Below are positions 30,823 to 37,070 of a stretch of DNA of 38,141 nucleotides, piece by piece; the stretch's first letter is position 1, and each line of letters opens with the position of its first letter. The position numbers and the translations under genes were made by a program. The stretch is from the NCBI GenBank assembly GCA_017547755.1, contig JAFYOX010000105.1, positions 1 through 38,141 on the forward strand, written 5' to 3'. The notes below the pieces were generated by a model. That model ran no database searches. It was given only the letters and a program-made list of their open reading frames with translations, and was not told the DNA's origin. This stretch comes from Clostridia bacterium (lineage in GTDB: Bacteria > Bacillota > Clostridia > Oscillospirales > CAG-272).

Positions 30823-30927
30823 GCTGCCCGCTTTTCAAAATATTGCAACACATAATATTTTCTCAAACGCACAAATTATATAACACACGTCTCTGATATG
30901 AAAATGCAGAAATACGGGAGAAAAAGA

Positions 30928-31953
30928 ATGAGAAAATTATTTGGAAAAGCCGCAGCATTGCTGATTTCGCTGAATCTTGTCCTGACAGCGGTTTCGTGTC
31001 CGGCGGCCGCATCGGGAACCGTTCCCGAAAGCGTATGTGTCGGCGGAATGCCGTTCGGCGTGAAATTCTATTCGCAGGGTATCCTGATCGTCGGGTTTTC
31101 GGAGATCGAAACGGCGGATGGCATCGAGACCCCGGCGCTGGACGCCGGTCTGAAGACGGGGGATATCATCACCCGTGTGAACGGCAGTGAAGTGAAAACG
31201 GCGGGAGAATTCATCGGGATCATCGAAAATGCACAGAATCCTCTTCAGGTGACCTACTTACGCGGAGGAGATGAAAATACCGTGTCGTTTGTTCCTTCCG
31301 TCTCAAAGGAAGACGGAAAACGGAAAACCGGAATGTGGGTCCGCGATACGACCGCCGGGATCGGTACTGTCACGTTTGTTCTGCCCGATACCGGAGAATT
31401 TGCGGGACTGGGACATGGGATCTGCGATGCGGAAACCGGTGAACTGCTGGAAATGAAGCGGGGAACCGTCGTCGATGTCATGATCTCCGGCGTGACCAAA
31501 GGCGTTGCGGGGAGCCCGGGGGAGCTGAAAGGGTACTTCACATCCGATAAATCGGGAGTCCTTCTCGGAAATACGCTGTGCGGCGTGTACGGCGTGATGA
31601 GTAATGTCCCGTGGGAAACGATCCCCGAAACCGCCGAAGTCGCATCCCGTGCGGATATCCGTCCGGGCGAAGCCTATATCTGGTGTACCCTCGACGGAAA
31701 CCGCCCGCAGAAATATTCGATCAATATCACGGAAATCCGCCGTGACGTATCCATGCAGGATAACCGCTGTTTTTCGATCGAGGTAACGGATCCGGTACTT
31801 CTCGAAAAAACCGGCGGGATTGTACAGGGGATGAGCGGCAGTCCGATCATCCAGAACGGCAAACTCATCGGCGCCGTCACGCATGTCCTCATCAACGATC
31901 CCTCGAAGGGATACGGAATTTTTATAGAAAATATGCTGGAAGCCGCGAGGTAA
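30928..31953 (+). CDS. spoIVB: SpoIVB serine peptidase (S55), intact copy
   Basis: 341-residue secreted sporulation protease. In B. subtilis it is made in the forespore and cleaves SpoIVFA in the intermembrane space, triggering pro-sigma-K processing. It has an N-terminal signal/anchor (about 8-28), a PDZ domain (about 50-120, with LDAGLKTGDIITRVNG), and an S55 catalytic domain with His163 in GLGHGI and Ser303 in GMSGSP. I prefer the ATG at 30928 (GGGAG 7 nt upstream) over an ATG at 30898 that has no ribosome binding site. Downstream, instead of a strong terminator, comes a foreign-looking gene and then a second, diverged copy of the spoIVB 3' end. Confidence 0.92.
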   Translation: MRKLFGKAAALLISLNLVLTAVSCPAAASGTVPESVCVGGMPFGVKFYSQGILIVGFSEIETADGIETPALDAGLKTGDIITRVNGSEVKTAGEFIGIIENAQNPLQVTYLRGGDENTVSFVPSVSKEDGKRKTGMWVRDTTAGIGTVTFVLPDTGEFAGLGHGICDAETGELLEMKRGTVVDVMISGVTKGVAGSPGELKGYFTSDKSGVLLGNTLCGVYGVMSNVPWETIPETAEVASRADIRPGEAYIWCTLDGNRPQKYSINITEIRRDVSMQDNRCFSIEVTDPVLLEKTGGIVQGMSGSPIIQNGKLIGAVTHVLINDPSKGYGIFIENMLEAAR

Positions 31954-31963
31954 ATCATTCAGC

Positions 31964-31980
31964 AGGGGCAATTTGCCTCT
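31964..31980 (+). terminator. Weak hairpin after spoIVB
   Basis: A 6-bp stem with one G-T pair lies 10 bp after the stop and is followed only by TTGCATTTT, which also supplies the -35 of the next promoter. It would be a poor terminator. Confidence 0.3.
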
Positions 31981-32008
31981 TGCATTTTGGTATCGGATAT
32001 TATATAAT
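31980..32008 (+). promoter_or_regulatory. Promoter of the zinc-ribbon lipoprotein gene
   Basis: TTGCAT (31980-31985) and TATAAT (32003-32008) are separated by 17 nt. It gives the inserted gene its own vegetative-type promoter, independent of spoIVB. Confidence 0.72.
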
Positions 32009-32069
32009 AAAATTGTAAGTGTGATCAAGATAGTTCGGGAAAACAACCTGATAAAAGAAGGTGATTGCG

Positions 32070-32564
32070 ATGAAAAAGACTATTTTGAAATCTATTCGAA
32101 TCATTCTTGGAGGGATTTTGATGTTATCTTTGTTCGGATGCTCAGTAAACAAATACGAGATTGACTATTGCGGAGCGAAATCCTCCTATCAGGGAGCAAA
32201 GAGTTCCTATGAGCCCGGTGTGGAAGTTAAACTGTATTATAAGAACTTCGCGTCGGATGTGGAGTATTCTTTCTATTTGGATGGAGAATATATTCCGCTG
32301 GAGTTTGACGCCAAGGGAGCGGTTATCCGCTTTGTTATGCCGGAACATGATGTAAAGCTCGAATGCAGAGTAAGAGGATCCATGCTGGCCTTACAACGCG
32401 AATGCCCGAGCTGTCATGCGCTTACTCCGCAGGCATCAAGCACTTGCCTGAGCTGTGGGTTTGAAATAGAAAAGTATGTGGTCTGTCCGGAATGCGGCGC
32501 AGAAGTCGCCGAGAATGCAAAGTTCTGCTATGAGTGCGGCAGAAATCTCAGCGATAACGAATAA
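32070..32564 (+). CDS. Predicted lipoprotein with two C-terminal zinc ribbons
   Basis: 164-residue protein, family not recognised. A short basic start and hydrophobic stretch end in a lipobox, LFGC (Cys24). Next come a tandem GAKSSY-GAKSSY duplication (35-47 region), a beta-rich domain (about 48-105), and two CxxC pairs repeated as zinc ribbons: Cys112/115/126/129 and Cys139/142/153/156. Zinc ribbons are usually cytoplasmic, so a lipid-anchored copy is odd; alternatively the N-terminus is an inner-membrane anchor. The gene is visibly more AT-rich, with different codon choice from its neighbours, suggesting transfer. The ATG at 32070 has AAGGTG upstream; a GTG 9 nt earlier is possible. It lies between spoIVB and a spoIVB 3' remnant. 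Confidence 0.8.
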   Translation: MKKTILKSIRIILGGILMLSLFGCSVNKYEIDYCGAKSSYQGAKSSYEPGVEVKLYYKNFASDVEYSFYLDGEYIPLEFDAKGAVIRFVMPEHDVKLECRVRGSMLALQRECPSCHALTPQASSTCLSCGFEIEKYVVCPECGAEVAENAKFCYECGRNLSDNE

Positions 32565-32641
32565 ATAAGCCAAAGGAGACCAGCTGAAAATGTTGATCTT
32601 CTTTGTTTTTGTAAAACTGTTGTCCCTAATGACAAACACTC

Positions 32642-32764
32642 GTGTCGGGGTCGCCCATCCTCCAGAATGGCCGAATTGTGGGAGCGGTGACGCACGTTCT
32701 CATCAACGATCCCTGCCGCGGGTACGGCATCTTCATCGAAAATATGCTGGATGCCGCAGGATAA
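32642..32764 (+). pseudogene. Remnant of a second spoIVB 3' end
   Basis: 41 codons including the stop read [13 protein letters not shown], then [11 protein letters not shown], then [10 protein letters not shown] to a TAA. They match the last 40 residues of the intact SpoIVB at 31 of 40 positions and, by my count, about 71% of bases. Similarity begins abruptly at the catalytic-Ser motif (residue 302 of SpoIVB), and the sequence before it is unrelated. Most base differences are synonymous or conservative, so this copy diverged under selection before being truncated. There is no start or ribosome binding site for this frame. It lies directly before a good terminator, the position expected for an original spoIVB 3' end. 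Confidence 0.88.
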
Positions 32765-32771
32765 AAGATTC

Positions 32772-32799
32772 GAAAGGAGCAGTCAGCTCCTTTCTTTTT
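32772..32799 (+). terminator. Intrinsic terminator after the spoIVB remnant
   Basis: A perfect 9-bp stem, GAAAGGAGC/GCTCCTTTC with loop AGTCA, is followed by TTTTT. It probably was the original spoIVB terminator. Confidence 0.92.
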
Positions 32800-32810
32800 C
32801 CACAAATCTG

Positions 32811-32819
32811 TGCTATACT
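32811..32819 (+). promoter_or_regulatory. Extended -10 promoter of the reductase gene
   Basis: TGC followed by TATACT is an extended -10 element. A weak TTTCTT -35 lies 17 nt upstream of the hexamer. It is 44 bp before the start at 32863. Confidence 0.5.
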
Positions 32820-32862
32820 AAGAACATCTCAAAAAACAATATTCAAAAATGAGGTGAATGAT

Positions 32863-34186: not shown

Positions 34187-35038
34187 TTATACTGTTCCCG
34201 CAATCGTCAGAACCGACGTGCCGGGAGTGATCGTCCAGGTACCGTCCGCCGCCTGCGTATACGTTGCCGCCGGAACGGTGATCTGTCCCGCCGTCGTGGT
34301 GAACAGTCCCGTCGTACGGTCGTAGGTGTACGCCGTTCCTTCGGTCAGCGTTGTACCGTTGAACGTCACGGTGATGGGATCCAGAATCGGATCAAGCGTA
34401 TCGGTCAGCACGGCGTTGTCTGTTGCGGTCGCCGACGTGTTTCCGTGGTTTTCAATGACAAACGTGTACGTCAGCTGATCGTTTTCCGATACCACGGCAG
34501 GGCATACGGACTTGCTGATGGTCAGATCCGCGCGGTCTTCCGTCTGGATGACCGCCGTCACAGTCACGGGAGTCGATAACCCGGGCGCGGTGATCACCGC
34601 GGTATTGGTGATCGTATCATCAGCCGCCAGCGGAGCATAGGCAGTCACCGCCGCTTCGTAGATAATGATGGCGTTGCCTCCGGCAGGAATGCTGATGCCG
34701 GAGAATACCAGCGGAGGACCCGCCGTCACAACCGGAGCCGCCTGCAGGACGCCGTTGATATACAGCCGGACGGACCCTGCGGTATATTCGAGCGGATACA
34801 CCGTAGTGCCGTTGAACGTATAACCGCCCAGATCGTCCGTGATCGTCACGCCGCTCATCGGCGTGGTACTGCTGTTCAGCAGTGTGATTACATAGGTCGC
34901 ATCGTCATTGGCGGTATAGTCGTCCATGACCGCGATCTTGGTGGAAGACAGCGTATCCAGAATCTCACCGGAGACGGTATTGGAATTGGTCGTGCCGCCG
35001 TTGTAGGACAAGGTGGCGAAATTGTTGAAGATTGCCAT
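34187..35038 (-). CDS. Two-domain DUF11 protein without signal peptide
   Basis: 283-residue, Thr/Asn/Val-rich all-beta protein. Two DUF11 (conserved repeat, Ig-like) domains are seen at about 30-165 (KIAVMDDYTANDDATYVITLLN) and about 171-283 (LTISKS, LTYTFVIENHGN, LTDTLDPI). Such domains usually occur in long secreted adhesins, but here there is no signal peptide, membrane helix, sorting motif or repeat array. The ATG at 35036-35038 has a perfect AAGGAGG 5 nt upstream, so the lack of a signal is not a start error. Similar stand-alone proteins beginning MAxFNN are familiar to me from Clostridia; their role is unknown, and a spore-surface role is only a guess. Confidence 0.82.
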   Translation of the reverse strand: MAIFNNFATLSYNGGTTNSNTVSGEILDTLSSTKIAVMDDYTANDDATYVITLLNSSTTPMSGVTITDDLGGYTFNGTTVYPLEYTAGSVRLYINGVLQAAPVVTAGPPLVFSGISIPAGGNAIIIYEAAVTAYAPLAADDTITNTAVITAPGLSTPVTVTAVIQTEDRADLTISKSVCPAVVSENDQLTYTFVIENHGNTSATATDNAVLTDTLDPILDPITVTFNGTTLTEGTAYTYDRTTGLFTTTAGQITVPAATYTQAADGTWTITPGTSVLTIAGTV

Positions 35039-35059
35039 GAGAACCTCCTTATAATTATG

Positions 35060-35073
35060 GTGGGTTGCCCCAC
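35060..35073 (-). promoter_or_regulatory. GNRA-capped hairpin in the DUF11 gene leader
   Basis: On the minus strand GTGGG-GCAA-CCCAC forms a 5-bp stem with a GCAA tetraloop, about 15 nt upstream of the ribosome binding site. G-rich runs precede it. A TTGACA at about 35106-35111 lacks a matching -10. Confidence 0.35.
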
Positions 35074-35173
35074 TACAGCCTATGCCCCTATCCCCGGATC
35101 GGTGTGCGATTCCTGTCAATTTTGTGAAATTATGCCGGAGGCGGACGGACAGGCTTCCGGACATGAATGCGGT

Positions 35174-36146: not shown

Positions 36147-37070
36147 TCATTCCATTTTCGCCTGGATCCGCTGCATCCAGTTCTCGTTCATCTCCGCTTC
36201 CACATCGTACCCGTTTGCGCGGAGGTTTTCGCTGATCTCCCGACGGATCTCCAGCGCTTTTTCGTACTGCCCGAGCTTTTCGTAACAGAACGATTTGCTG
36301 TACAGCTCATCCCAGAAATACGTCCCCAGTTCACCTGCCTTGTCCCACAGCGCAAACGCTTCGTCATATTTTCCGAGATGTTCGCAGATATCGCCGCCGT
36401 GCATATACAGGATCCATTCTTCCGGAAACCGCACGGACGCTTTCCGGAACCATTCGTATGCCTTTTCATAATCGTGCGCAGAGATGTAGGCCTCGATCAG
36501 AAGCGACCATTCCAGCAGATTGTCCGGATCGTTTTCCGCTTTTTCCGTCTGCGTTTTTATGAATTCCTCACCTCGTCCGAGCGTGAAAAACAGCTCCGCA
36601 CGGCAGGAAGCCGCCCGACGATAGGAATCCGGATCTTCCGCCGGATCGCACGCCAGCGTTTTGTCGTACCATTCCATCGCCGTATCCCGGCAGTATTCGA
36701 GCATGAAATCGTGGATGATCGCAAAGTTCCATTTGTCCGCAAGGGACAGTTCACCTTCCTTCATCAGCTTCCGGTATTCAAGCAGGCACCGCATGAAATC
36801 CTCCGGATCGCGTGTCTTTTCGTACACCGACGCCAGCCGCTGGGCATAATTGTCGTACGCGACCGAGTGCTTCCGGTAAAAATCATCGACCGTGACTTCG
36901 TAAAGCCGGGCGATCTCCGGCAGAAGCATCACATCGGGCAGCGTTGTTCCGCATTCCCAGCGGGAGACTGTCTGCGCGTTGATGTTCAGCGCCTGCGCCG
37001 CCTGTTCCTGCGTGAGATTCTTTGCGGTACGGAATTTTTTCAGATTTTCCGAAAATATGGTAGAGTTCAT
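36147..37070 (-). CDS. XRE-family regulator with TPR repeats, 307 aa
   Basis: Residues about 8-62 are an XRE helix-turn-helix (TQEQAAQALNINAQTVSRWECGTTLPD). Residues about 75-300 are TPR-like helical pairs; clear units include YEKAYEWFRKASVRFPEEW, YDEAFALWDKAGEL and YEKALEIRREISENL. The layout is that of XRE-TPR regulators, some of which (RRNPP) respond to peptides; no peptide gene is visible beside it. The ATG at 37068-37070 has GGGAG 7 nt upstream. A consensus promoter with nested inverted repeats lies 40-70 bp upstream. It is divergent from the GNAT gene. Confidence 0.87.
   Translation of the reverse strand: MNSTIFSENLKKFRTAKNLTQEQAAQALNINAQTVSRWECGTTLPDVMLLPEIARLYEVTVDDFYRKHSVAYDNYAQRLASVYEKTRDPEDFMRCLLEYRKLMKEGELSLADKWNFAIIHDFMLEYCRDTAMEWYDKTLACDPAEDPDSYRRAASCRAELFFTLGRGEEFIKTQTEKAENDPDNLLEWSLLIEAYISAHDYEKAYEWFRKASVRFPEEWILYMHGGDICEHLGKYDEAFALWDKAGELGTYFWDELYSKSFCYEKLGQYEKALEIRREISENLRANGYDVEAEMNENWMQRIQAKME

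Follow-up and report, generated by a model that had tools for sequence, protein, structure and literature searches.

Why is an intact spoIVB gene followed by a second copy of its own 3' end, and how did another gene come to lie between the two? The locus belongs to a stretch of 38,141 nucleotides, here called the window, which is contig JAFYOX010000105.1 of a Clostridia bacterium assembly. A first-pass annotation, made from the letters alone, had offered three origins for the arrangement: an element that integrates in a gene and displaces its 3' end, gene conversion, or the collapse of a tandem spoIVB pair. The features concerned are as follows.

30898..31953, plus strand: intact spoIVB, the proposed attachment platform (TIGR02860 above cut-off, PF05580)
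31831..31833, plus strand: core codon M312 of the proposed attB, placed directly 5' of the catalytic Ser codon by the mapping of S378; breakpoint common to displaced ends and three split spoIVB genes
31832..31953, plus strand: 3' end of spoIVB on the proximal side, the working one; homologous to the displaced end
31962..31983, plus strand: terminator-like hairpin 3' of intact spoIVB (hairpin scan)
32070..32564, plus strand: cargo gene; product lipoprotein-like, with a double zinc ribbon (PF13240, PF12773)
32618..32641, plus strand: P half-site TGTTGTCCCTAATGACAAACACTC, 24 bases, the right end of the cassette (from the sequence; a similar motif precedes displaced ends elsewhere)
32642..32764, plus strand: displaced spoIVB 3' end, 41 codons including the stop (79% identity over residues 312-350)
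32772..32794, plus strand: terminator-like hairpin 3' of the displaced end (hairpin scan)

The identity of spoIVB is given by profile searches, in which its scores exceed the cut-offs of both TIGR02860 and PF05580; the start is set at the first ATG, 30898, and an alternative internal ATG at about 30929 is possible. Aligned with the last 41 codons of the gene (31831-31953), the displaced end (32642-32764) agrees at 87 of 123 bases and in 32 of 41 codon products, the stop included, while the next best ungapped match of these 123 bases in the window, on either strand, reaches 53. A second, diverged spoIVB 3' end downstream of the intact gene, as claimed in the first-pass annotation, is thus borne out. 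Both ends are SpoIVB sequence, against the alternative that the remnant belongs to some other gene. The same annotation had described an AT-richer gene between the copies and a strong terminator behind the second. Both descriptions hold: the stretch between the two 3' ends has a GC content of 0.428 against 0.534 for the window, with 0.13% of 750 same-length windows equally AT-rich, and terminator-like hairpins follow the displaced end as well as the intact gene. The promoter that had been assigned to the inserted gene was not recovered, since a consensus scan of 31900-32850 gave matches on the minus strand only, in about the number expected by chance.

The inserted unit is about 0.7 kb long and holds one gene and no recombinase gene. 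Its product appears lipoprotein-like from a reading of the N-terminus; it has no NCBIfam match and no name beyond the zinc ribbon. Homologues are present in 25 other genomes of the family, and in all 13 that could be compared (those with a known spoIVB contig) they lie on a contig other than that of spoIVB, so that in these 13 the cargo gene was not found beside spoIVB. In the window genome, which is 75% complete, no recombinase triplet was found; there is one PF00239 match and no LSR3 match at 1e-60. Two neighbouring genes on the minus strand may be mentioned. An HTH/TPR regulator gene (36147-37070) may be an older cassette gene, because homologues with 61-63% identity adjoin spoIVB in G007 (L045) and G298 (L122). 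A DUF11-type repeat protein, likely located at the cell surface, is encoded near the insertion at 34187-35164.

Is the breakpoint peculiar to this genome? The half-site TGTTGTCCCTAATGACAAACACTC, overlooked in the first sequence reading, abuts the displaced end directly on its 5' side. A SpoIVB search of 59 related genomes returned short extra 3' ends that start at the same residue as that of the window, and a 43-residue tail query found matches in 311 of 395 family genomes, 55 of them with more than one (counted from the table); a few of these multi-match genomes, such as G377 and G194, have second full-length spoIVB copies. The DNA 5' of each extra end was aligned across the fetched loci, which contain 56 displaced ends at the position of codon M312. 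A motif resembling TTGTTGTCC(C/T)T(A/T)(A/C)TTGACCACACTC stands directly 5' of 45 of these 56 ends and of none of 39 intact genes, and a weakened form, judged by eye, precedes 8 of the 11 others. The 45 motif-bearing ends come from 30 genomes, or 34 genomes when weak forms are counted. Extra ends that do not begin at M312 mostly start at Thr-His-Val. A degenerate 23-base pattern matched 45 times in the species-genome collection, at 40 loci, and every record concerned is titled as a Clostridia or Oscillospiraceae MAG. Nine of the matches are double half-sites; the other 36 lead into the 3' end of spoIVB, 35 as judged by script and one, the frameshifted L159, by eye. The half-site is conserved across many genera. 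The exact P pattern had no match in IMG/VR, and the half-sites of recombinase-bearing variants differ in sequence.

These data bear on the idea that a tandem spoIVB pair collapsed and left a 3' end behind. Such an origin would account for two homologous ends that both appear once to have been functional. However, it would have to yield one and the same start codon in 30-34 fetched genomes, each time behind a conserved motif that is unrelated, and again beside recombinase operons, and no two full spoIVB genes in tandem were found among the fetched loci. The collapse put forward in the first-pass annotation is therefore highly improbable.

Which elements use this junction? In L188-L192 (four IMG/VR contigs and one phage-labelled record), it lies 39-163 bases 3' of three consecutive large serine recombinases, which in L190 carry PF00239, PF07508 and a zinc ribbon. 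The third recombinase has close relatives in 3 of 246 genomes of the family (near E 1e-190) and in 2 of 394 genomes of the order (at 1e-120). These five genomes span three families, and all have a half-site and spoIVB 3' sequence downstream. The triplet is found 5' of the junction in G101, G099, G686 and G656, separated from it by about 1-1.6 kb in G099 and G686; the contig of G150 has the third recombinase only, and the spoIVB 3' end of G101 is truncated at Thr-His-Val. Judging from gene order, the native spoIVB 3' end of G656 is most likely the displaced one, because the gene that comes after it is spo0A, as it is after the unsplit spoIVB of G057 (L026). Searches for LSR3 gave no match at 1e-80 in plasmid records and MT836038.1 alone in phage records.

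Three genomes, G099, G150 and G265, have a split spoIVB. The 5' part of the gene continues without a stop up to the core codon and is followed by a mirror half-site, for example GGGG/ATG/GGGTTGAGGGATATTAGGGACAACA, and the right end in G150 and G265 reads TGTTGTCCCTAATGAACATCAACC/GTG. Taken together, the left and right sequences imply a putative near-palindromic attP, whose length is in the usual range for large serine integrases. The two halves of the split genes lie on different contigs in all three genomes, and matching att half-sites are present at both element ends in G150 and G099 (attL and attR on separate contigs). Recombinases are seen in two of the three; in G265 none is seen, its contig reaching its end 377 bases before the half-site. 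The first of the three origins proposed, an element that integrates in the gene and displaces its 3' end, is well supported by the shared half-site, the triplets at the same junction and the split spoIVB of relatives. The window therefore most likely holds a non-autonomous insertion at the attB that triplet-serine-integrase elements use in spoIVB. No empty site was found in a close relative: the closest, G013 (85% identity over 6.8 kb), ceases to be similar at the stop codon of spoIVB, 0.65 kb before the end of its contig. Contigs of six assemblies (G008, G009, G001, G026, G051 and G013) break off at the 3' end of spoIVB or no more than about 0.7 kb from it, which is what a repeated sequence would lead one to expect.

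Where does the site fall in the protein? SpoIVB structure 9lnf aligns over residues 45-349. The paper on SpoIVB gives the serine as residue 378 and the Thr-His-Val motif as 393-395 (PMC12502668). By its spacing to Thr-His-Val, S378 corresponds to S313 of the window protein, which places core codon M312 immediately before the catalytic Ser codon. A second, distinct insertion site in spoIVB lies at the Thr-His-Val codons, with the ends GTAGGTATCATCAA / TGATACCTAC; the element-side ends have one and the same sequence in G051 and G026, two genomes of different families. The loci with this site are listed below.

L036, 15153-15330
L037, 1-187
L042, 1-178
L043, 1-118
L241, 9183-9260
L265, 1-126

Have the displaced ends been under selection? 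In the window pair, codons that differ by a single base show 13 synonymous and 1 non-synonymous differences (p 4e-8 against chance), in agreement with the earlier claim that both 3' ends were once functional. The wider comparison drew on 39 gapless displaced ends, from which three with a stop were left out. The remaining 36, set against their own intact ends in comparisons that are not independent of one another, differ by single-base codon changes of which 364 are synonymous and 41 non-synonymous, against an expected synonymous share of about 24%. Given this mainly synonymous divergence, displaced ends were working ends for much of their history.

Many displaced ends also resemble the intact end of their own genome. 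Third-position identity between the two ranges from 0.62 to 0.97 in many genomes, and the own intact end is the best match of the displaced end in 19 of 43 rows, of which the five G233 rows are to be disregarded, as each rests on 2-3 codons and the G233 gene was aligned with an internal stop. By contrast, the displaced end is unlike its own intact end in the window (13 of 28 third positions), in G051, G085, G102 and G379, and in most of G031. Between the window and G013, third positions agree at 124 of 231 in the 5' part of the gene, at 13 of 31 in the intact 3' end and at 11 of 28 in the displaced end. Gene conversion, as raised at the outset, may account for displaced ends that resemble their own intact end; as the sole origin of the arrangement it fails, leaving the half-site motif unexplained. 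A foreign origin of the intact 3' end was also considered and rejected: among 57 genes (1,596 pairs), cross-genus synonymous similarity was not above expectation, the largest excess being 0.40 against control windows of up to 0.46.

The similarity of the two ends is central to the main rival reading, in which the cassettes are inserted and shuffled by homologous recombination and not by a recombinase. A circular molecule bearing a spoIVB 3' end and terminator would cross over with the intact 3' end at any point of the shared 110-220 bases, and the half-site would be a relic of an ancestral element. The homology needed is present in every unit. In L134, L116 and others, identity between the intact and the displaced end is 87-97% over 106-217 bases, and in L134 and L116 the duplicated block spans the core through the terminator (213-217 bases). 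The frequent resemblance of a displaced end to its own intact end fits this reading, as do arrays without a recombinase. However, conservation of the half-site across many genera is not needed for a relic, and the cassettes end within tens of bases of it. On balance, homologous recombination through the 3' end seems a somewhat unlikely account. As a separate observation, part of the spoIVB 3' end stands in three tandem copies after the stop in L242 (1771-2000).

What do the insertions carry? The largest array is that of G233, where the intact spoIVB is followed by six displaced ends in about 28 kb, all in one direction. Across the fetched loci, 41 complete units in 28 genomes have a median length of 3,227 bp and a range of 644-10,246 bp; a 42nd unit, of 254 bp in L121, was dropped as a chance pass of a loose motif test, and the stretch of 10,246 bp counted as a single unit in L140 probably holds two or more. 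The units are compact, consisting of a regulator and an operon without recombinases, and for 28 of the 40 units with a gene call the last gene ends no more than 60 bp from the half-site. Domain searches covered 110 of 114 cargo proteins (two small ORFs, one ORF overlapping the gene end and one of 1,992 residues were left out), and the matches include AraC-type regulators (17), HTH_3 (9), glycyl-radical enzymes (7), radical-SAM (6) and Fic (4). Matches to defence models among the 110 comprise candidate PDC-S01 in two proteins (best 2e-114) and SoFic in two (best 3e-87). A GH5 cellulase unit is common to G233 and G139, with 78% identity over 3,066 bp and different left neighbours.

Some cargo recurs between arrays. 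A block of about 0.7 kb is repeated in those of L042, L116, L118, L119, L124, L125, L134 and L139; in L118 it is a Fic/Phd-like toxin-antitoxin pair, with the Phd match just below the Pfam cut-off. A glycyl-radical-enzyme-like unit, named from domains read in related proteins, is found at spoIVB in several genera with 66-78% nucleotide identity (L116 3053-6075, L125 3285-6307, L117, L138 and L140). In G233, L110, L118, L123, L128 and L130, palindromic double half-sites followed by T runs occur after spoIVB 3' ends, as do half-sites joined to an inverted stretch of the spoIVB attB, resembling attL.

The arrays searched hold no recombinase of their own. In 23 genomes, 22 of them with displaced ends, neither PF00589 nor PF00239 was found in an array at E<=1e-5, and the closest match on the contig of an array, about 16 kb off in G081, is to a short resolvase fragment. 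Searches for recombinase remnants by tblastn at 1e-20 gave none in the arrays except one distant match in L040, 8.7 kb from the end. An inverted repeat within the half-site had suggested a tyrosine recombinase, a candidate that was set aside given that no PF00589 occurs in the arrays of these 23 genomes and that serine-recombinase triplets adjoin the junction. The requirement for a resident serine recombinase in each array genome was likewise dropped, 7 of the 23 having no PF00239 match at 1e-5.

Could the units instead be decayed or cis-mobilisable (CIME-like) leftovers of complete triplet-integrase elements, stacked by accretion? Their right end is the same as that of the complete elements, and tandem accretion of integrative elements is known. 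The units are, however, compact, with a regulator and an operon ending near the half-site, and recombinase remnants are missing from the arrays in both of the searches just described, the distant L040 match excepted. We regard such leftovers as an unlikely source of the arrays.

The explanation that we consider probable is a recombinase-less cassette at the attB of triplet-serine-recombinase elements in spoIVB. Elements with three large serine recombinases near their right end would integrate at attB, the codon just 5' of the catalytic Ser, and would split the gene. The window cassette, 0.7 kb long with one lipoprotein/zinc-ribbon gene and ending in a P half-site, would have inserted at the same attB and left one 3' end downstream behind the P half-site; spoIVB would stay intact because a full 3' end and terminator lie at the left of the cassette. 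Repeated insertions in related genomes would give rise to arrays of operon cassettes. The most economical link is that the recombinase triplet moves the cassettes in trans, presumably by way of a circular cassette intermediate. A recombinase-bearing element could afford to split spoIVB because it could be excised, and a recombinase-less cassette would last in a spore-former only if it brought along a working 3' end and terminator. The locus in the window is a minimal example of this system and is probably old.

Several points count against this explanation. A reaction between attB and a cassette junction is not a standard serine-integrase reaction. Recombinase-bearing elements are rare (3 of 246 and 2 of 394 genomes) while arrays are common, the inverted attL-like sites and palindromes of some arrays misfit a simple model, and the intact 3' ends show no sign of foreignness. 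To these are added the triplet not found in the window genome, the split halves on separate contigs and the cargo gene that was not met beside spoIVB elsewhere.

How does the system compare with those already described? The Streptococcus integrative and conjugative elements (ICEs) with a serine integrase triplet have mutT, traG and hsdM as their reported targets (PMC4701971). Both they and the relatives described here have three adjacent large serine recombinases at one end, and both insert inside a protein gene with very small direct repeats, a likeness of arrangement (PMC4701971). Unlike the reported Streptococcus elements, those here target spoIVB, and most insertions are recombinase-less operons that leave it intact. 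The window is not itself a triplet-integrase element, because its unit holds one gene and no recombinase.

In CIMEs and tandem accretion, units are stacked at one attachment gene and have ends in common with autonomous elements. Here, too, several units without a recombinase occupy one attachment gene and share att ends with an autonomous element, but they are mostly single-operon units of 0.6-7 kb, each with a spoIVB 3' end at its left and a half-site at its right. Integrons, with their tyrosine recombinase IntI and attC sites, gather many recombinase-less cassettes at one platform. The arrays resemble them in having tandem recombinase-less cassettes in one direction at one platform with a shared recombination site, and also in their toxin-antitoxin cassettes and lineage-specific recombination sites. 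In contrast to integrons, there is no attC or tyrosine IntI here (PF00589 is absent from the arrays of the 22 genomes with displaced ends); the half-sites are those of serine-recombinase elements, the cassettes are regulated operons and the platform is a sporulation gene. Sporulation genes are split by skin, by SPbeta in spsM, by gin in gerE and by yin in yabG. The recombinase-bearing elements of G150, G099 and G265 likewise interrupt a sporulation gene. They differ from these cases in their target, spoIVB, and their triplet recombinases, and the spoIVB of the window is uninterrupted.

The system may be a variant of known integrative elements, with an integron-like reading as the less likely one. 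It is tempting to see a serine-recombinase counterpart of the integron, in which spoIVB would be the platform, operon cassettes with a 3' end and terminator at the left and a P half-site at the right would be gathered by the triplet in trans, and selection for sporulation would force lasting cassettes to restore the protease gene. This proposal is tentative, and we hold it to be possible rather than probable. No published account of operon collection at one site by serine recombinases in these gut bacteria was found in a literature search.

If mobilisation in trans is true, it would explain why several assemblies break at spoIVB. It would also provide natural att halves for an unstudied recombinase triplet and open the need for three enzymes to experiment. 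With the recombinase-bearing forms, spoIVB joins the sporulation genes that mobile elements split. Above all, a large group of mostly uncultured gut bacteria would be collecting regulated operons at one site by means of serine recombinases, among them operons for glycyl-radical enzymes, glycoside hydrolases and toxin-antitoxin pairs.
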